DNA of 64,000 nt from Lachnoclostridium sp. An169 (GTDB lineage Bacteria; Bacillota; Clostridia; Lachnospirales; Lachnospiraceae). Made by a program: the position numbers and the translations under genes. Below, piece by piece: positions 5,279-23,492 of the stretch. Position 1 is the first letter of the stretch, and each line of letters opens with the position of its first letter. The stretch is taken from the NCBI RefSeq assembly GCF_002160525.1, contig NZ_NFKT01000004.1, positions 124,001 to 188,000 of the forward strand, given 5' to 3'. The notes beneath the pieces are model-generated. The model was not told the DNA's origin and did no database searches. It was given only the letters and a program-made list of their open reading frames with translations.

Positions 5279-5297
5279 AGGGTATCCGGAGTCGGGA

Positions 5298-5330
5298 ATA
5301 CCCGGAGTGATAAGACTCCGGGTATTTTTT
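5298..5330 (+). terminator. Terminator after the GT51 gene
   Basis: ATACCCGGAGT pairs perfectly with ACTCCGGGTAT around the loop GATAAG, followed by six T (about 5298-5330). A very strong intrinsic terminator. Confidence 0.92.
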
Positions 5331-5412: not shown

Positions 5413-5441
5413 TTGTCATACTGCTTTGCGTGTGGTATGAT
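5413..5441 (+). promoter_or_regulatory. Promoter of the pilus operon
   Basis: TTGTCA (5413-5418), a 17-nt spacer and TATGAT (5436-5441). It is the only good promoter between the GT51 terminator and the pilus genes, so it should drive all five pilus/sortase genes. Transcription would start near 5448. Confidence 0.75.
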
Positions 5442-5447
5442 TTCACT

Positions 5448-5674
5448 ACATCAAAATCCCAGACGAATTTCATTCTAAAAATTCACCTGTCTGGAAAAGC
5501 CTCTCCGTCAGGGGGCGGGAGGGCAGATCTCTACTGTCGCGGCAGATTCGGCCGGAGATACCAGTTTTGATGAGAAATACAAAGAGAAAAGGAGGAGCAG
5601 CGTATGAAGCAGGATTGAGACAAAAGAATATTGTTGCAGAGAGTGTTGATTCAGTAAACAAAGGAGAGGTATGC
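5448..5674 (+). promoter_or_regulatory. Long structured 5' leader of the pilus operon, with a minimal upstream ORF
   Basis: About 225 untranslated nt separate the predicted transcript start from ATG 5675. The segment 5493-5565 can fold: GCCTCTCCG against CGGGAGGGC (8 of 9 pairs) and ATCTC against GAGAT enclosing CTG/CAG. It matches no riboswitch consensus I can recall. Near its end AAAAGGAGG (5587-5595) sits 8 nt before ATG 5604, which opens a four-codon ORF (Met-Lys-Gln-Asp-stop, 5604-5618). The true pilin start has a second site, AAGGAGAGG, at 5661-5669. Confidence 0.4.
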
Positions 5675-8035
5675 ATGAAGAGAAGAACGAGGCTCCTTTC
5701 CGGTGTACTGTTCTCTGTATTTCTGTTAGCTGCGGCAGGGGGAAGTCGGTCCTTTGCCGGAGAGGACGAAGGTGCAGACAGCATCAGCGGAAGGATGTCG
5801 CTTGCCGAAGAACTGGGGCTATCCGGGTATGTGGACCCGGAGGGGTACCTGACCGAAGAGTATCTTGGAGACAAAAGTACACTGGAGCTGGAACGCTCGG
5901 GTACTGCACAGCTGATACGGAGTTATTCTCCGGAAACGGCGAAAAAGAAAGTGCCCGCCGGGGTGAAAAGTGCGGTGCGGACGGCTGTCCCTGCAGCCAG
6001 ATCTGCAGGAGGGACAGTGACTGCATCAGAACTGGTGCGGTATATGAACACAGTTGTAGGATATTTTGAAGTGAACGGAATCCAGGCGTTTTGCGCAGAA
6101 CATGGAGTGGACCGCCCTCTTGTCGGCGAAACCACATCCGCTCCGGAAACGGTGACGGATTCGATGCAGAGAAAAGTCCTCTATTACGGGTACAGCGGCC
6201 CGAAGCAGTGGAGCGGCATATTCAGCTTTGAGCAGGGAAGAGCGGTTACATCTCTGGCTCTGAGTTACTATTATTCCGGCGCGGATTCCTTAAACTGGGG
6301 AATTCACGGAAATTATTCCACCCAGATGGGACTGTCCGGATTTATCGATTATATTGAGAGCGCGGCGGAAGCTCCGGAAGGTTTTAAGGTTTACAAGGTT
6401 TCCACGGGAAACGGGGCAAAGCAGGATCTGATGTACTGGGAATATCAGCCAAACGGTTATCTGTCTCTGGCAAAGCGCTCGGCAAATACTTCTGTTACAG
6501 CGCAGAATCCTCTGTATTCCCTGGAAGGAGCCAAATATGGGGTATATACGGATGAAGCGTGCAGAACGCCTGCCCTGACGGCAGATACCGGTGTCAATGC
6601 CGTGCTGGAGACGGACGCATCGGGAAATGCGGGAACTGTCTGCCTGAAAGTGGGAACATATTATGTAAAAGAAATAAAAGCGCCACAGGGGTATAAAGCG
6701 GACGACGCCGCAGTAAAGGTCAGCGTTGCGGCAAACCATACGTCCGCAGTGCCCAATACGCCGGTCGTCACGGATACGCCGGTCATGCTGCCGGTGAGTA
6801 TCCTTCTGAGAAAAGTGGATGCGGAAACCGGCGGTGCAGCCCAGGGGACAGGCTCTCTGGAAGGAGCCCAGTTCCGGGTGAAATTCTATGGTACCCGGAG
6901 CAGCTCGGATCCGGCGAAAGACGGGGATACTCCGCTCCGGACGTGGATCTTCGTCACAGATGCGGAAGGAAAACTGAAGTATTCGACGGAGTATCTGCTC
7001 TCCGGTGACGATCTTTACTATGATGCGGGGGAAAAGCCGGCGCTGCCATACGGCACACTGACCTTTGAAGAGATCGCTCCGCCGCCGGGATACCTGGCTG
7101 ACAGCCAGATTATTACCGCCAGCATAGAAGAGGGAAGCGGAGGCAGCGGAACCATTGTCTATCAGGAGCCGGTTCAGAAGGAAAATATTATCAGGCTGAA
7201 CCTGAAGAAAGTACAGTCCGGCACGGATCTGCCGGTTTCCGGTGTAGTGTTCGAACATACGGGACCTGACGGAACAAAGACAAGATACACGACAGACAGC
7301 GAGGGAATGGCAGTGATCCGCGGACTCCGGGAAGGGAAACACACGGTAAGAGAAGTGGGCGTTCCGGACGGTCTGTCTCTCAATGAAAATGTGATTACAT
7401 TTACAGTGGACAGGAAAGGAAATGTTACTGTCACATCCAAGGCGGAAGTCACAGAACTGAGCGGAGCGATTGTGGTCACGGCAAAGCAGGCCGGAGCCAC
7501 AGATATCCGGGTCGAGAACCAGCCGGCGCCATTTACCCTGAAAATCTGCAAAGAGAATGAAAAGGGGAAGGTCCTGGAAGGAGCGAAATTTACACTTTAC
7601 AGTGACAGCGGATGCAGCCGGACAGTGGCGAAGGCAGTCACCGGAAAAGACGGGACTCTTACGCTGGAAGGACTGCATCCGGGGACGGTCTACTATCTGA
7701 AAGAGACAGAAGCGCCGGCAGGATACCGGCTTCCCATGGACGAAGAAGGAGAGGATGTTGTCTGGGAGATCTGTGCCGAAAGCAGTGTGCCGGAGGGGAC
7801 ATTTACCTTCTATGTGAACGGAAAGGCATACACTGACCGGGAAGGCCAGTTCTGTGTGGAAGGAACAAAGAAGGACCGAATCGCCCGGATGACCATATAC
7901 AATGAGACCGGTATCCGGCTGCCGAAGACGGGATCCGGAGGAACCCTGCTTATGACGGCGGCGGGGATTCTGCTGGCGGCGGCAGCATTTACGGTTTCTG
8001 TGAGAGACAGAGGAACAGGCAGACGTAAAAGATGA
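5675..8035 (+). CDS. Pilus tip adhesin: thioester domain, SpaA/Cna-B repeats, LPKTG anchor
   Basis: A 786-residue secreted protein with a signal peptide (basic MKRR, hydrophobic core, cut near Ala28). Residues about 115-260 form a thioester-like domain with Cys140 in GIQAFCAEHG; in this family a Cys-Gln thioester can bind host surfaces covalently. Four SpaA/Cna-B-type domains follow (about 280-350, 375-485, 505-590, 620-700), recognised by LEGAKYGVY, LEGAQFRV and LEGAKFTLY starts and by E-box motifs VKEIKAPQGY and LKETEAPAGY, which form isopeptide bonds. The C-terminus has LPKTG (749-753), a membrane span and a basic tail. ATG 5675 is chosen for its ribosome binding site at 5661-5669 and the signal peptide; upstream in-frame ATGs lack both. 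Its stop overlaps a possible start (8032) of the next gene. Confidence 0.85.
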   Translation: MKRRTRLLSGVLFSVFLLAAAGGSRSFAGEDEGADSISGRMSLAEELGLSGYVDPEGYLTEEYLGDKSTLELERSGTAQLIRSYSPETAKKKVPAGVKSAVRTAVPAARSAGGTVTASELVRYMNTVVGYFEVNGIQAFCAEHGVDRPLVGETTSAPETVTDSMQRKVLYYGYSGPKQWSGIFSFEQGRAVTSLALSYYYSGADSLNWGIHGNYSTQMGLSGFIDYIESAAEAPEGFKVYKVSTGNGAKQDLMYWEYQPNGYLSLAKRSANTSVTAQNPLYSLEGAKYGVYTDEACRTPALTADTGVNAVLETDASGNAGTVCLKVGTYYVKEIKAPQGYKADDAAVKVSVAANHTSAVPNTPVVTDTPVMLPVSILLRKVDAETGGAAQGTGSLEGAQFRVKFYGTRSSSDPAKDGDTPLRTWIFVTDAEGKLKYSTEYLLSGDDLYYDAGEKPALPYGTLTFEEIAPPPGYLADSQIITASIEEGSGGSGTIVYQEPVQKENIIRLNLKKVQSGTDLPVSGVVFEHTGPDGTKTRYTTDSEGMAVIRGLREGKHTVREVGVPDGLSLNENVITFTVDRKGNVTVTSKAEVTELSGAIVVTAKQAGATDIRVENQPAPFTLKICKENEKGKVLEGAKFTLYSDSGCSRTVAKAVTGKDGTLTLEGLHPGTVYYLKETEAPAGYRLPMDEEGEDVVWEICAESSVPEGTFTFYVNGKAYTDREGQFCVEGTKKDRIARMTIYNETGIRLPKTGSGGTLLMTAAGILLAAAAFTVSVRDRGTGRRKR

Positions 8036-8046
8036 AAGGGAAAAGT

Positions 8047-10056
8047 ATGAAAAAGAATCAGATAAACAAAGGAACAAGAGAGACGAAAAAGAGCGGTGTA
8101 AAGGGAAATACTGTCGGGAGAAAGTACGGTGAACAAAAGAAATACAGTGTCGGGAGAAAATACAGGGTCCGCGTGATATGTACCTGCGCAGCCCTTGCAG
8201 CAGCCTTCCCCCTGACTTCTTTTGCTGAGCTGCCCGTTGTCATGGCGGCAGAAGAACCGTGGTACGCAGCGGGAAACCATGTGGCAGAAAAGGGGTATGT
8301 AAGTCTGGGAAGCGGAGGAGCCTCTATTACTGTCAACGGAAATCAGGGACAGTCCATGGAAGGCAAAAGGTTCGAGATCTTCCGTCTGTTCGACGCAGTG
8401 AATGCAAAGCAGGGTGAATCCATCAACTATACATTTAACGCTCAATATAAAACAGCCCTTCAGACAGTCGTGGCGCAGGCACTTAACAGGAGGGACGGCA
8501 CATCCCTGAAGGCATCCGCCGTGACGGAATATCAGGTGATCGATTACATTCAGTCCCTGAACACGAATCAGGTGGAGGGCGCCCATGCAGACCAGAAGCC
8601 GGAGGGGAGCTATTCGGACTTCCGGTATTTCGTGGAGCAGGTGAGAACCACGATCAAAGACATGGGAGGGGAAGGAGAATACGTCTATGTGGGCAGTGCA
8701 AAATCCGACAACTCGGTGACAATCAGCGGTCTTTCCTACGGATATTATATCGTGGATGAGATCTCGGAATATGACGAAGACGGCAGGGAATGGTATGCCT
8801 CTTCCCTCTGCATGGTGGACACTGCCAATCCGGCGACGGAGATCGAGATCAAATCCGATTATCCCCGGATCGTCAAGAAGGGGCGTGAGGATGATAATCC
8901 GGATTCTGTGGGGGATGACGGATGGAATGATATTGCGGACTACGAGATCGGACAGACTGTGCCATACCGGTTCGTCTCAACGATCTGCGACATGAACGGA
9001 TATCACAGTTACTACTATGCATGGCATGACCGGATGGATGAGGCGCTGACCTTCAACGGCGATAAAAATGCGATTCAGATTACCATTTCCAACGGAAAGA
9101 AAGACTATGTCCTGACAAAAGGAGAATACACCGTGATTACGGAGGGCAGCAGGCTGGACAGCGGCGATACGTTCCTCATCGAGGTGCAGGATATCAAGGC
9201 TGTCGTGGACCGGGAGTTTGACAGGATAAACAGTCTGGGACACAACGACTATACCGGTCTGACCGTGACGCTGACCTATGAGGCTACCCTCAATGACCTG
9301 GCGGCAGACCGGACAGGAAGGCCCGGTTTCGAGAACGGTGTCCGTCTGGAATTCTCCAATGACCCGGATGCAGACGGAAAAGGGGAGACCGGCTATACCC
9401 CCTGGGATACGGTTGTGTGCTTTACGTTCCGGCTCAACGGTCTGAAGACCAACGACCACGATCTTGTACTGGAAGGAGCAAAATTCCGGCTCTACAGTGA
9501 TGCGGACTGCAGAAATGAAGTCTATGTGAAGGAAAAGAATCAGGGCGGAAGCGGCTATATTGTGATCAACCGGGACAGCACCGGAGGGGATGACCATACC
9601 GGCGGAAGTGTGCCGAAGGATGCGGTGGAGATATCTTCCGGACAGGACGGTGTCTTTACCATCTACGGACTGGACCAGGGCGTTTATTACCTGAAAGAGA
9701 CTGCGGCGCCGGACGGATACCGCACGCTGCTGGATCCCATTGTGATCACGGTTACGCCTGCGTACACCGATGACCGGAACGGATACACGGCAGGGGAATC
9801 CGCAGGCAGCAGTATTCTGAAAAGTCTGGAGATGACTGCCCATATCCGGGAATTCTACGAAGGAGAGTACGCGGAAGATACGGTTGACCTGAACGGTGAC
9901 GCCGCAGATGGTTCCGGTGACCTGAAAGTGATCAACCAGGTGGGGAGCCGTCTTCCGGTGACAGGATCCGCGGCCATGCCTGTGCTCATCGGAAGCGGAG
10001 CGGTTCTGATGGTTACTGCTGCGGTGCTCGGCAGAAAGAAGAACAGAAAAGAATAG
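8047..10056 (+). CDS. Backbone (major) pilin with isopeptide D2 and SpaA domains, LPVTG anchor
   Basis: A 669-residue surface protein. A long basic N-region precedes the signal-peptide core (VICTCAALAAAFPLTSFA). A DYPRIVKKG segment resembles the pilin motif whose Lys joins subunits. A fimbrial D2-type isopeptide domain starts near residue 295 (ADYEIGQTVPYRF), and a SpaA domain lies near 470-570 (LEGAKFRLYSD ... YYLKETAAPDGY with the E-box Glu). LPVTG at 636-640, a hydrophobic span and RKKNRKE complete the sorting signal. These features fit the sortase-polymerised shaft. ATG 8047 has AAAGGG 6 nt upstream; ATG 8032 overlaps the previous stop (ATGA) and is the alternative, adding five residues. 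The sortase gene follows 25 bp later. Confidence 0.85.
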   Translation: MKKNQINKGTRETKKSGVKGNTVGRKYGEQKKYSVGRKYRVRVICTCAALAAAFPLTSFAELPVVMAAEEPWYAAGNHVAEKGYVSLGSGGASITVNGNQGQSMEGKRFEIFRLFDAVNAKQGESINYTFNAQYKTALQTVVAQALNRRDGTSLKASAVTEYQVIDYIQSLNTNQVEGAHADQKPEGSYSDFRYFVEQVRTTIKDMGGEGEYVYVGSAKSDNSVTISGLSYGYYIVDEISEYDEDGREWYASSLCMVDTANPATEIEIKSDYPRIVKKGREDDNPDSVGDDGWNDIADYEIGQTVPYRFVSTICDMNGYHSYYYAWHDRMDEALTFNGDKNAIQITISNGKKDYVLTKGEYTVITEGSRLDSGDTFLIEVQDIKAVVDREFDRINSLGHNDYTGLTVTLTYEATLNDLAADRTGRPGFENGVRLEFSNDPDADGKGETGYTPWDTVVCFTFRLNGLKTNDHDLVLEGAKFRLYSDADCRNEVYVKEKNQGGSGYIVINRDSTGGDDHTGGSVPKDAVEISSGQDGVFTIYGLDQGVYYLKETAAPDGYRTLLDPIVITVTPAYTDDRNGYTAGESAGSSILKSLEMTAHIREFYEGEYAEDTVDLNGDAADGSGDLKVINQVGSRLPVTGSAAMPVLIGSGAVLMVTAAVLGRKKNRKE

Positions 10057-10081
10057 ATAAAAGCGAAACACAGGAGAGAGC

Positions 10082-11044
10082 ATGAAACCTATGGGAAGTA
10101 ATAAGGGAAAAAAATGGATTTTGAGGATTGTGTTTGCCGCCGGTTTTCTTCTCCTCTGTTATCCCCTGGCAGGGAATATCATTCAGCGGCAGCAGCAGAA
10201 ATATGCTGTTGCCTCCTGCCGGAGTATTCTGGAGAAACAGGATGAATCCCGGATCCGGGAGATCCTGGACGAGGCGGAAGAGTACAACAGCATGCTGTTC
10301 CAGTCAAAAGGAGCGGTGGTGGACAATATGGATACGGGAATCTTAAGCGATGAGAGCTACTGCCGGATCCTGAACCAGTCTGACGGCATTATGGGAAGTA
10401 TCGAGATCCCGAAGATCGATGTGGACCTTCCGGTTTACCACGGGACAGATGAGGAGGTTCTGTCCGCAGGCGCAGGTCATCAGCAGGGAACCAGTCTGCC
10501 GGTGGGCGGCGAAAACACTCACTGCGTCCTGACCGGACACCGCGGAATCCCCGGCTCCAGTCTCTTTACCCGGCTGGATGAATTAAAAGAAGGGGATCTG
10601 TTCTTTCTGCAGGTTATGGGAGAGACGCTTGCCTACCGGATCTGCGGGACAGATGTGGTGGAGCCGGAAGATACCGGCGTGCTGAAGATTCAGGCGGGGA
10701 GAGATCTCTGTTCCCTGGTTACATGCACGCCCTACGGCATCAATACCCACAGACTGGTTGTCACCGGTGAGAGGGTCCCTTACGAGGAGACGGTGTACGA
10801 AAGCATCGCGCCGGGGATCCCGTCTTTTCGAGAACTCACTTTTACGGCTCTGCCTTTTCTGCTCCTTGCAGGGGCAGCCGTGTTTCAGATCACAGATTGG
10901 AGGAAAGAGAAATATGTCAGAGAAAAGCAGAATGGAAAAAAGAATGGTTCCCGCACTTCTTCTGTCCGGGATACTTCTTCTGTCCGCGATGCCCGTGTGC
11001 GCAGAAGAAGGAGAAGGAACAGGAGGCGGAAACGTTATGCCTGA
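10082..11044 (+). CDS. Class C (pilin-polymerising) sortase
   Basis: A 320-residue sortase with an N-terminal membrane span (residues 12-31) and a second span near 253-270, the two-anchor layout typical of class C. The catalytic triad is visible: His153 in LTGHRG, Cys215 in LVTCTPYG and Arg224 in NTHRLVV. It should link backbone pilins by joining the LPVTG threonine to a pilin lysine. A clear DPW/DPF lid motif is not seen. After the second span comes an unusual tail of about 50 residues ending in an Arg-rich run; residues about 278-320 are encoded in a second frame over the signal peptide of the next gene. AGGAGAG precedes ATG 10082. Confidence 0.9.
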   Translation: MKPMGSNKGKKWILRIVFAAGFLLLCYPLAGNIIQRQQQKYAVASCRSILEKQDESRIREILDEAEEYNSMLFQSKGAVVDNMDTGILSDESYCRILNQSDGIMGSIEIPKIDVDLPVYHGTDEEVLSAGAGHQQGTSLPVGGENTHCVLTGHRGIPGSSLFTRLDELKEGDLFFLQVMGETLAYRICGTDVVEPEDTGVLKIQAGRDLCSLVTCTPYGINTHRLVVTGERVPYEETVYESIAPGIPSFRELTFTALPFLLLAGAAVFQITDWRKEKYVREKQNGKKNGSRTSSVRDTSSVRDARVRRRRRRNRRRKRYA

Positions 11045-11609
11045 TGCCGGAGCGGGGAAGATTGAGATCCTGCTGACTGAGGGCGCAGAAGGAACATCAA
11101 GGGAAGGAGTATGGCTTTCCTGTACAAAGGCAGCAAATGTCACAGAGGGAACCTATGAGCTGACGGACGCCTGCAGCGATGAGCGCATCGACCTGAACAG
11201 CATCGGGAGCGCTTCGGAACTGGAGCGGGCGGCCCGGATAATTGCGGAGAAAAGTGTGGCACCGGACACTACCGTGCAGACGGATGCAGAAGGGAAGGCT
11301 GTATTTTCCGGTCTGGATGTGGGCGTCTACCTGATTCAGGCGCTGGATGATTCGGGGTATGATGAGATTACGCATTTCCTCATTGCAGTGCCGACCTGGA
11401 GTGAGGAAGAGGGGACCATGCTTTATGAGATTACGGTAAAACCGAAACATACCCCCAGACCGGAGGAGTCAGAGGAGAAAAGGCACGCGCCCCAGACCGG
11501 AGTGTTCAGCCCGGTGCTGCTGTTTTTCGGGACAGCGGCAGCTCTTTTTACCCTGGGAATTATGATGAATCTGCCGGGAGGAAAAAAAGAGAGCGATGAG
11601 AAGGATTGA
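10914..11609 (+). CDS. Small pilus protein with non-canonical APQTG sorting signal (likely base pilin)
   Basis: A 231-residue protein with a signal peptide cut near VCA30, one SpaA/Cna-B-like domain (about 48-175, with AVFSGLDVGVYLIQ near its end) and a C-terminal sorting signal. That signal reads APQTG (192-196), where the first Leu of LPxTG is replaced by Ala. A hydrophobic span (198-220) and a charged tail follow. Size, order and the variant motif suggest the basal pilin that joins the shaft to the wall. ATG 10914 has GGAGG about 10 nt upstream, and the signal peptide begins there. The start lies inside the sortase gene, giving a 131-nt overlap in another frame; the 3' end overlaps the next gene by 14 nt. 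Confidence 0.8.
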   Translation: MSEKSRMEKRMVPALLLSGILLLSAMPVCAEEGEGTGGGNVMPDAGAGKIEILLTEGAEGTSREGVWLSCTKAANVTEGTYELTDACSDERIDLNSIGSASELERAARIIAEKSVAPDTTVQTDAEGKAVFSGLDVGVYLIQALDDSGYDEITHFLIAVPTWSEEEGTMLYEITVKPKHTPRPEESEEKRHAPQTGVFSPVLLFFGTAAALFTLGIMMNLPGGKKESDEKD

Positions 11610-12411
11610 CCAGAGAATAAGAAAATTGGAACGGCGGAAGAAACGGCAGAAAGGAAAGCATACAGCAGAAAGGATCTATACAGGGATTGTTTTTCTTCTT
11701 CTCGGAGCGGTGCTGCTTGCGGCGGGGACAGCGGAACTTGTGAAGTTCCGCGATCTCCAGGCGCAGAGTGAGGCGCTGAAAAATGCCGTTGTCAGAGTCC
11801 CGGGCGCCGGACAGCTTCTTGACCCGGATGATCCATTTAACCGGAATATTGATTTCGAGAAGCTCCGGGCGATCAATCCGGACATCTGCGGCTGGATCTA
11901 CGTGCCGGATACGAAGATTGACTACCCGGTGCTGACCGGGGAGACGGATGAGGAGTATCTGTCGCTGGACTATCAGGGGAAAAAAGCAGAAAACGGCGCA
12001 GTGTTTACATTCGCCGGGGCAGATCTGGAAAATGACGGCCATATCTGCATTTTCGGCCATAATCTGATCTCCGGCCAGATGTTCGGCGAACTGAAAAATT
12101 ACAGAAACCGGGACTTCGCCGGCGCCCATGAGACCATGTACCTGTATACACCGGACAGAACGGTAAAGTGCCGCCTGATCTCCGTGTTTCCCTGTCGAAA
12201 AGATGACGGGGTATTTGAACTGGACCGCGCAGGAGATACTCTGGAACTGGAAGCGCTCAGCGCAGATCTGCAGAAGAGGAGCATATCGGCGGGAAATGTG
12301 GTGGAAAGTCCGGGGAAAATATTCACCCTGGGAACCTGCAGCGGACAGACAGGAAGTGCAGACCGTCTGACCGTACATTTCGCGGCCGTGAAACAAAAAT
12401 ATATTTTATGA
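11596..12411 (+). CDS. Class B sortase
   Basis: A 271-residue protein with a very basic N-terminus (RRIDQRIRKLERRKKRQKG), one membrane span (about 28-47) and a class B sortase domain starting near DFEKLRAINPDICGWIYVP. The triad is His155 (FGHN), Cys248 (TLGTCSG) and Arg257 (DRLTVHF). The TLGTC motif differs slightly from the common TLSTC. It probably anchors the finished pilus to peptidoglycan, recognising the neighbouring APQTG protein, though class B enzymes polymerise pili in some species. It is the last gene of the five-gene pilus operon and overlaps the preceding pilin by 14 nt, which implies translational coupling. Confidence 0.88.
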   Translation: MRRIDQRIRKLERRKKRQKGKHTAERIYTGIVFLLLGAVLLAAGTAELVKFRDLQAQSEALKNAVVRVPGAGQLLDPDDPFNRNIDFEKLRAINPDICGWIYVPDTKIDYPVLTGETDEEYLSLDYQGKKAENGAVFTFAGADLENDGHICIFGHNLISGQMFGELKNYRNRDFAGAHETMYLYTPDRTVKCRLISVFPCRKDDGVFELDRAGDTLELEALSADLQKRSISAGNVVESPGKIFTLGTCSGQTGSADRLTVHFAAVKQKYIL

Positions 12412-23148: not shown

Positions 23149-23232
23149 TGCGGAAGATGGGACTTGAACCCACACGACACGAATGTCACAAGATCCTTAG
23201 TCTTGCTCGTCTGCCAGTTCCGACACTTCCGC
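23149..23232 (-). tRNA. tRNA-Leu (anticodon AAG), copy 1
   Basis: An 84-nt class II tRNA. The acceptor is GCGGAAG/CTTCCGC with discriminator A, and the D-arm GGAACTGGCAGACGA is of leucine type. The anticodon arm is CAAGA-CTAAGGA-TCTTG, giving anticodon AAG; the long variable arm is GACA-TTCG-TGTC and the T-arm GTGGG-TTCAAGT-CCCAT. CCA is not encoded. A34 would need conversion to inosine to read CUC and CUA as well as CUU. Identical in sequence to the copy at 23409. Confidence 0.95.
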
Positions 23233-23408: not shown

Positions 23409-23492
23409 TGCGGAAGATGGGACTTGAACCCACACGACACGAATGTCACAAGATCCTTAGTCTTGCTCGTCTGCCAGTTCCGACACTTCCGC
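23409..23492 (-). tRNA. tRNA-Leu (anticodon AAG), copy 2
   Basis: Identical over all 84 nt to the copy at 23149-23232, with the same AAG anticodon, long variable arm and no encoded CCA. It has its own promoter and terminator, so the two are tandem independent units and not one processed transcript. Confidence 0.95.

Follow-up and report, generated by a model that had tools for sequence, protein, structure and literature searches.

A recurrent five-gene operon of Lachnoclostridium sp. An169 with class C and class B sortases and a predicted tip-shaft-base adhesive pilus

Introduction

Whether a pilus operon of a gut clostridium may divide its work between two classes of sortase, and what the resulting fiber would grip, is the question raised by a stretch of 64,000 nucleotides (64 kb) of the genome of Lachnoclostridium sp. 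An169 (contig NZ_NFKT01000004.1, positions 124,001 to 188,000), which was analyzed as a whole and is called the window in the following; it belongs to contig C34 of the genome G000 (4.85 Mb). On the plus strand, between window positions 5675 and 12411, five genes encode in succession a tip adhesin, a backbone pilin, a class C sortase (SrtC), a small pilin with the sorting motif APQTG and a divergent class B sortase (SrtB). This order, place and strand had been given in an earlier note on the same DNA and are borne out by the open reading frames (ORFs) and by Pfam and NCBIfam profiles; likewise, the LPVTG motif of the backbone and the APQTG motif of the small protein, named in that note, are present, and Cys140 of the tip lies exactly where it had been put (Table 1). 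Neither a sixth gene nor a SipA-like gene was seen in the window operon.

The five genes are likely to encode an adhesive pilus of tip, shaft and base, which would be polymerized by SrtC and anchored by SrtB via the APQTG signal. From the encoded proteins we infer the chemistry, expression and function of this pilus as follows. SrtC would cleave the LPKTG motif of the tip and link its threonine to a lysine of the backbone, for which Lys274 is the best candidate, and repetition of this step with the LPVTG signals of the backbone would let the shaft grow. Lys178 of the base pilin, within the motif VKPKH, would then accept the last backbone unit, whereupon the dedicated class B sortase would cut the base motif as APQT|G and fix the fiber to the peptidoglycan. 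At the far end, a putative thioester between Cys140 and Gln250 of the tip would form bonds with amines of a target cell. The cassette as such appears to be mobile, with some relatives residing in conjugation modules and the window copy being inserted at a chromosomal site. If the anchoring step is true, gut clostridia in which no class A sortase is found anchor pili by an operon-borne SrtB, and SrtB and APQTG form a clean enzyme-substrate pair.

Table 1. Genes, motifs and putative control sites of the operon, in window positions
Feature	Residues	Position	Strand	Basis
Terminator-like hairpin ending the upstream unit		5294..5329	+	15 pairs, T tail
Promoter-like TTGTCA-17-TATGAT, TG before second hexamer		5413..5441	+	10 of 12 consensus matches; consensus only
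Tip adhesin (P0001), 786 aa		5675..8035	+	TED_2, SpaA, Gram_pos_anchor (Pfam)
FCAEH with Cys140, putative thioester Cys	139-143	6089..6103	+	fits [YFL]C-hydrophobic-polar (PMC6194298)
KQDLMY with Gln250, putative thioester Gln		6419..6436	+	alignment column read by eye
Tip LPKTG	749-753	7919-7933	+	sequence motif
Backbone pilin, 674 aa		8032..10056	+	GramPos_pilinBB, RrgB_K2N_iso_D2
Candidate acceptor Lys274 (KSDYP)		8851-8865	+	conserved; role inferred
Backbone LPVTG	641-645	9952-9966	+	sequence motif
Class C sortase SrtC, 320 aa		10082..11044	+	NF033745 253 bits, cut-off 160
SrtC catalytic Cys215 (TC)		10721-10726	+	invariant in 8 aligned
Small base pilin (P0004), 231 aa		10914..11609	+	predicted fold, profile match, sorting motif
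Acceptor-like VKPKH with Lys178		11436-11450	+	PKH conserved
Base pilin APQTG	192-196	11487-11501	+	sequence motif
Divergent class B sortase SrtB, 271 aa		11596..12411	+	class B profile and structures

Recurrence of the Five-Gene Unit

The unit is not confined to the window, since 13 triads of SrtC, base pilin and SrtB were found in 12 genomes, the window included, with all five genes present in 11. Seven of them (L054-L060), in which SrtC, an APQT[GNS] protein and SrtB are consecutive, came from a scan in which the best 80 of 231 SrtB relatives were kept, and further triads were found in G459 (two copies), G453, G011 and G778. As strong matches were few among the surveyed genomes (58 of the genus, 392 of the order and 391 of the class), the five-gene unit is real and recurrent but uncommon. 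Chance gene order is ruled out by its recurrence in other genomes. Some copies deviate from the plan: an extra ORF lies between tip and backbone in L057, no tip gene was seen in the stretch examined for L056, and the backbone of L058 is reduced to 125 amino acids (aa) beside a recombinase-like ORF. The latter, assigned by eye (L058:6370-8013, 547 aa), ends at the remnant backbone gene of this element-borne operon. The count leaves out L110, whose SrtC and SrtB are far less similar, as well as L073, L078, L085 and L108, in which SrtB lies about 5-6 kb from SrtC.

Several loci of other layouts were met beside the triads. In a different phylum, the coriobacterial locus L110 (L110:589-10361, Coriobacteriaceae) repeats the five-gene plan (LPMTG-LPSTG-SrtC-VPKTG-SrtB) with distantly related proteins. 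In L073, L078 and L108, and by layout also in L085, LPxTG pilins and SrtC are followed by several secreted ORFs and, about 5-6 kb on, by a class B-type sortase; the layout of L073, L078 and L108 is conserved between rumen Lachnospiraceae. L061, and by layout L062-L065, combines a signal-peptidase-like ORF and ORFs whose starts look TasA-like by eye with a class B-type sortase and an APKTG protein about 400 aa long, and possibly represents a sortase-anchored fiber that is not a pilus. Decayed relatives occur as well, L297 (G047) being devoid of tip and SrtB, and L298 (G009) featuring a broken backbone with neither base nor SrtB seen. The G009 site resembles that of the chromosomal copies of G459 and G453, in another genus.

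Coupling of the APQTG Motif to the Class B Sortase

The sorting motif of the base pilin varies with the presence of SrtB. APQT[GNS] was found in 12 of the 13 triads, namely APQTG in ten, APQTN in L056 and APQTS in L059, the remaining triad (L265) having VPATG, whereas none of 12 pairs of SrtC and base pilin without SrtB showed it. These pairs feature LPQTG (L192, L193, L197, L200, L201, L203), IPQTG (L189, L194), IPVTG (L198), IPDTG (L199), SPKTG (L297) or no clear motif (L299). A naive hypergeometric probability for this distribution amounts to 2.5e-6, which is too small, the sequences being related. L190, L191 and L202 (no clear small sorted pilin adjoining SrtC), L187 (which begins close to a contig end, SrtC being out of view, and has a base-like protein without APQTG) and L196 (only the downstream half of L195) were left out of the pairs, and L188, a duplicate of L060 in the same genome, was counted once. 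L198 and L199, counted as pairs without SrtB, have another sortase-like ORF (TLFTC) beside the base.

SrtB of Clostridioides difficile cleaves SPQTG and SPKTG, but neither LPETG nor NPQTN (PMC4155245). Because SPQTG is cut and LPETG is not, APQTG is plausible as a class B signal, and since NPQTN is left uncut, class B enzymes evidently differ in the signals they accept. A sortase-built pilus operon with a thioester-type tip and both SrtC and a dedicated SrtB, as read in the earlier note, is supported, and the coupling fits SrtB acting on the APQTG base. A perfect coupling has to be rejected, being broken by the VPATG triad of G778 and by G047, which keeps the class-B-like SPKTG without SrtB beside it. 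As the C. difficile enzyme cuts SPKTG, the G047 motif could be served by another SrtB.

With respect to the enzyme itself, the nearest solved structures of the operon SrtB are class B sortases, and the catalytic residues Cys248 (TLGTC), His155 and Arg257 are invariant in 8 aligned sequences. The genome G000 holds 13 sortase matches, 11 of which were classified as five class C enzymes, four class B enzymes over cut-off (TIGR03064, 161-197 bits), the operon SrtB and one unassigned; the remaining two resemble the operon SrtB. No class A assignment was obtained among the 11 of 13 classified, with a profile library whose holding of a class A model is unchecked. A class B sortase-like domain (TLSTC) was observed at the end of a 1625-aa protein on contig C25 of G000 (L050:1705-6582); the same contig has a VirB4 match, and this sortase fusion probably belongs to a conjugative element.

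Backbone, Base Pilin and Fiber Assembly

The assignment of the second gene as shaft pilin is based on matches to PF16569 (GramPos_pilinBB, 51.1 bits), TIGR04226 (RrgB-type isopeptide, 57.5 bits) and PF17802 (49.4 bits). Lys274, Lys282, Asn443 and Glu556 are conserved in all 12 aligned backbones, Lys282 and Asn443 forming a putative isopeptide pair, and the KSDYP motif around the candidate acceptor is likewise found in 12 of 12. At the lid-motif place of SrtC (window 10316-10333), where DPF or DPW is presumably the class C motif, the sequence reads DNM and varies among orthologues.

The assignment of the small protein as base pilin draws on its predicted fold. An AlphaFold model computed from eight sequences reached a predicted local distance difference test score (pLDDT) of 65 overall, with ten-residue means above 80 over residues 61-140. 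In a Foldseek comparison, N-terminal domains of pilins ranked first with SpaD and EbpC at the top, and basal pilins followed lower, GBS52 of Streptococcus agalactiae at rank 8, SpaB of Corynebacterium diphtheriae at 17 and SpaB of Lacticaseibacillus rhamnosus at 46; TM-scores on the query were low (about 0.3-0.4), partly owing to the long loose ends of the model. A profile search with the base likewise matched 4hss (SpaD) and Spa2, and the SpaH/EbpB pilin model matched weakly (41.8 bits, cut-off 95). Moreover, all 13 base pilins feature PKH at the end of the domain, which we take to resemble the acceptor-lysine motif of pilins.

Taken by themselves, two sortases might each anchor separate surface proteins with no polymer being formed. 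This is very improbable, given a backbone that matches isopeptide and pilin-backbone models, a sortase of class C and a base of pilin-like predicted fold. A different division of labor, in which SrtB is the polymerase or an accessory polymerase like Spy0129, SrtC adds tip or base and another sortase anchors the fiber, is considered improbable. Class B polymerases operate in the FCT-2/3/4 pili of Streptococcus pyogenes and were proposed for Clostridium perfringens VR-10B (PMC7900414, PMC8088525), and G000 has six further class B-type sortases, four over cut-off and two by similarity to the operon SrtB. The structural matches of the operon SrtB include 3psq. This structure, which we take to be Spy0129, is nevertheless outscored by the anchoring-type SrtB structure 1rz2 (98.6 vs 106 bits with the operon SrtB profile), SrtC is strongly class C, and the signals are distributed accordingly, with LPxTG-like motifs in tip and backbone and APQT[GNS] in nearly all triad bases.

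Hence, polymerization by SrtC and anchoring by SrtB remain the favored roles, but several observations weigh against them. TIGR03064, although the best NCBIfam match of the operon SrtB, reaches 125.2 bits and thus stays under its cut-off of 153.75, and since class B sortases polymerize pili in S. pyogenes, the anchoring role is uncertain. The motif counts come from related sequences and include the exceptions of G778 and G047. At each of two other pilus-like loci of G000 (C10 and C11), two class C sortases occur without an adjoining SrtB, so that a dedicated SrtB is not always needed. The base model is only moderate, and its best structural matches are shaft pilins. Furthermore, the window backbone reads YPR instead of the canonical YPK with its lysine, which was found in 2 of 12 backbones; still, FctA of S. 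pyogenes is also devoid of the YPK lysine, so YPK is not universal (PMC7900414).

The Tip Adhesin

The tip protein begins with a hydrophobic signal (by eye) and features four SpaA stretches. Its TED_2 match passes narrowly with 28.3 bits against the Pfam cut-off of 27 and reached 33.6 bits in a six-frame search. In known thioester domains (TEDs), the cysteine lies in a motif [YFL]C-hydrophobic-polar and the glutamine near the domain end in hydrophobic-Q-polar-hydrophobic-hydrophobic (PMC6194298). The FCAE of the window tip fits the former, whereas KQDLM has a lysine at the hydrophobic place of the latter. In an alignment of 21 TED rows, several of them near-identical, a glutamine precedes the last strand in each (by eye), MAFFT placing it a few columns off in some rows, and Pro148 and Gly212 are likewise invariant. 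The conservation of the cysteine in these rows is partly given by construction, the loci having been picked by a pattern demanding it (17 of 20; L142 and L143 were seen by eye to have it and L139 was not located, while L149, identical with the window, was removed).

Judged by these motifs, the tip probably carries an internal Cys140-Gln250 thioester. The spacing of 110 residues between the two, shorter than the 171-204 of three class II structures (PMC6194298), speaks against it, as does the TQxxPhiW motif, which was not seen by eye in the window TED. The AlphaFold model of the tip, with a mean pLDDT of 39.5 only, was of no use for a fold comparison.

The N-terminus of the tip varies between operons, TED_2 being present in four of eight tips tested (window, L054, L060 and L195, not L057, L059, L184 and L185). 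In L057 (L057:2712-5123), the thioester domain is replaced by a stretch with peptidase-like Cys/His motifs (by eye) and no Pfam match. The thioester domain alone gave one match in a viral contig (L204).

Conjugative Context and Chromosomal Insertion

Conjugation modules enclose six of the 13 triads; each module has a VirB4 gene, the transfer genes are on the same strand, and three types of VirB4 are represented. In L058, L059 and L060 (the last from Faecalimonas umbilicata DSM 103426), TrbL-, VirB4- and VirB1-like genes 49-67% identical to those of the G011 element follow 2-3 kb after the operon on the same strand, together with a PrgI-like gene (31-55% identical), and neither a relaxase nor a coupling protein was matched in the stretches examined. 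The G011 element itself comprises RepA_N, ParB, PrgI and a relaxase of the MobA/VirD2 type, and farther along it matches a coupling protein (32%). The G778 operon is separated by 1.4 kb from the coupling protein of a type IV secretion system (T4SS) and is followed by VirB4, VirB6-like and glucosaminidase genes, and a relaxase match was obtained (36% over 266 aa). On contig C3 of G459, CHAP and SSB-like genes (by eye) adjoin the operon, and farther along the contig encodes a coupling protein, a MobL relaxase and a VirB4-like protein, which passes CagE_TrbE_VirB with 23.8 bits (cut-off 21). G056, in which a G778-type VirB4 occurs on the operon strand at a distance of about 21 kb, was not counted among the six. 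The VirB4 types are distinct: with the G056 protein, VirB4 of G778 gives 564 bits and VirB4 of G011 gives 130, and the G459 type was found by neither query.

The other copies are placed differently. Queries from two T4SS types, unsuited to find the G459 type, matched no transfer gene anywhere in the 64 kb window or in the stretches examined for L054, L055, L057, L184 and L186; about 9 kb downstream in L054 there is a RepA-like match, though a weak one (33% over 135 aa). At the site occupied in the window, and likewise in G041 and G052, 29 of 29 other genus loci among the matches listed (55 genomes matched, window included) are empty, the germination gene being directly preceded by a transglycosylase or dUTPase gene with no pilus gene. 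The window copy is therefore an insertion between chromosomal neighbors. Direct or inverted 10-base words shared by the two border stretches tested were not found. Element-borne copies do not separate from chromosomal ones in a midpoint-rooted tree computed from backbone, SrtC and SrtB together: chromosomal G045 clusters with element copies (ultrafast bootstrap 88 and 73; wider group 100) and the element-borne copy of G459-C3 with chromosomal ones (100), single-gene trees differing in detail. A phage or plasmid origin found no support, the SrtB profile having no relative in viral contigs and the backbone no match in 72,556 plasmid records.

Against this background, the target of the tip has to be reconsidered. 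The earlier note had assumed a host target, which is now doubted because the tip N-terminus varies and because the element-borne relatives suggest mating adhesion; adhesion between mating cells is a serious alternative to host binding. A host-adhesion pilus in the window organism, with the conjugative relatives as mere vehicles, has in our estimate not quite an even chance. It would accord with the window free of matched transfer genes, with the thioester domain of SfbI, which binds host fibrinogen (PMC6194298, PMC7900414), and with the genus survey, in which a SrtC at E 1e-25 or better lies no more than 25 kb from VirB4 in just two, G011 and G056, of the 32 listed VirB4 matches. The variable tip domain and the element-borne copies within transfer modules, on the same strand, do not fit it well.

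A pilus for mating pairs or aggregation, by origin and, in the element-borne copies, by function, is a tentative reading that draws on the same-strand modules and on the recurrence of the same T4SS genes 2-3 kb after the operon in four elements. Moreover, the thioester adhesin of pLS20 is needed for efficient conjugation in liquid, and a Cys68Ser mutant fails to complement its loss (PMC8092201). However, this adhesin is not a pilus, and loss of host sortase genes did not affect conjugation as loss of the adhesin did (PMC8092201). Besides, chromosomal copies have been kept where no transfer genes were detected, a place between transfer genes may be taken by cargo genes as well, all but two of the 32 VirB4 matches listed for the genus have no such SrtC within 25 kb, and a G011-type VirB4 remnant, in G030, is accompanied by no pilus gene in the 18.5 kb read. 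The G011 VirB4 itself had no match at E 1e-150 in 295 genomes of the order, a draw without positive control, from which nothing follows. According to a 2025 review, Gram-positive conjugation systems encode no pili. Since that review denies such pili and pLS20 requires a thioester adhesin, a sortase-built mating pilus is the bold reading; that the cassette is the first of its kind in Gram-positive bacteria is a conjecture which we regard as doubtful, yet worth stating. Such a pilus would be a covalent fiber that brings along both its polymerase and the enzyme anchoring it to the cell wall and grips recipient cells with a reactive tip, and the module would be carried by several different conjugative elements and captured and kept by chromosomes like that of the window.

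Comparison With Known Systems

The pairing of SrtC with SrtB had been put forward in the earlier note as a candidate new pilus type. This could not be upheld in its categorical form, as class B sortases in pilus operons are already in print (PMC7900414, PMC8088525). The literature search, which covered few subscription papers and preprints and is no proof of absence, yielded in the titles and abstract openings listed no gut-clostridial pilus operon with both sortase classes and no sortase pilus operon within a Gram-positive transfer module.

The S. pyogenes FCT-2/3/4 pili (Cpa-FctA-FctB, Spy0129) resemble the window operon in their thioester tip Cpa, isopeptide backbone, small base and operon-encoded class B sortase (PMC7900414). 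They differ in that the class B enzyme polymerizes, a single pilus sortase is present in FCT-1 to FCT-4 and SipA/LepA is used, with SrtA anchoring a base with an LPxTG-like signal (PMC7900414), whereas the window operon features SrtC and an APQTG base and is thus not of the FCT kind with class B as sole pilus sortase and SipA/LepA. C. perfringens VR-10B (CnaA-FimA-FimB, srtB1) likewise has a clostridial three-pilin operon with a class B gene and a SrtB-type signal in FimB, but the class B gene takes the place of a class C sortase, a signal peptidase gene is present, and a second srtB lies beside the operon in opposite orientation (PMC8088525).

The order of tip, shaft and base, the class C polymerase and the pilin folds are shared with pili of the Spa type (C. 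diphtheriae SpaA/B, Enterococcus faecalis Ebp, L. rhamnosus SpaCBA). The base pilin of that type carries LPxTG for SrtA; here, by contrast, the base has APQTG beside SrtB, and the canonical YPK is absent from 10 of 12 backbones. With a class C gene beside the pilins, a backbone of the isopeptide and LPxTG type and a base with its own signal and predicted fold, the operon agrees with class C heteropili. Finally, the TIE adhesin of pLS20 and PrgB of pCF10 are surface adhesins encoded with a conjugation system (PMC8092201, PMC12857230), as are the six element-borne triads, though not the window copy as far as the two T4SS query types reach within 64 kb; both are single proteins and not pili, and the thioester cysteine is needed in that of pLS20 (PMC8092201).

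Transcription and Neighboring Genes

The five genes follow each other with junctions of -4, +25, -131 and -14 nt and are likely to be read as one transcript. The promoter-like site in Table 1 coincides with the start of the region given in the earlier note and sits just after the terminator-like hairpin. This arrangement is weakened by the fact that promoter-like sites were no commoner than in shuffled sequences (4 found, mean 4.8) and by a further terminator-like site on the plus strand within the operon (11515-11540), inside the coding sequence of the small protein. Riboswitch control was rejected, no Rfam family scoring over its gathering threshold within the operon.

Neighboring genes were named by eye from their translations (aminotransferase, dUTPase, transglycosylase, GerA, DegV). 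The listed ORF of the GerA-like gene following the operon starts at 12408, which is probably not the real start, because three relatives begin at the equivalent of 12498. Elsewhere in the window, two tRNA-Leu(AAG) genes of equal score lie about 260 bp apart on the minus strand (23149-23232 and 23409-23492).

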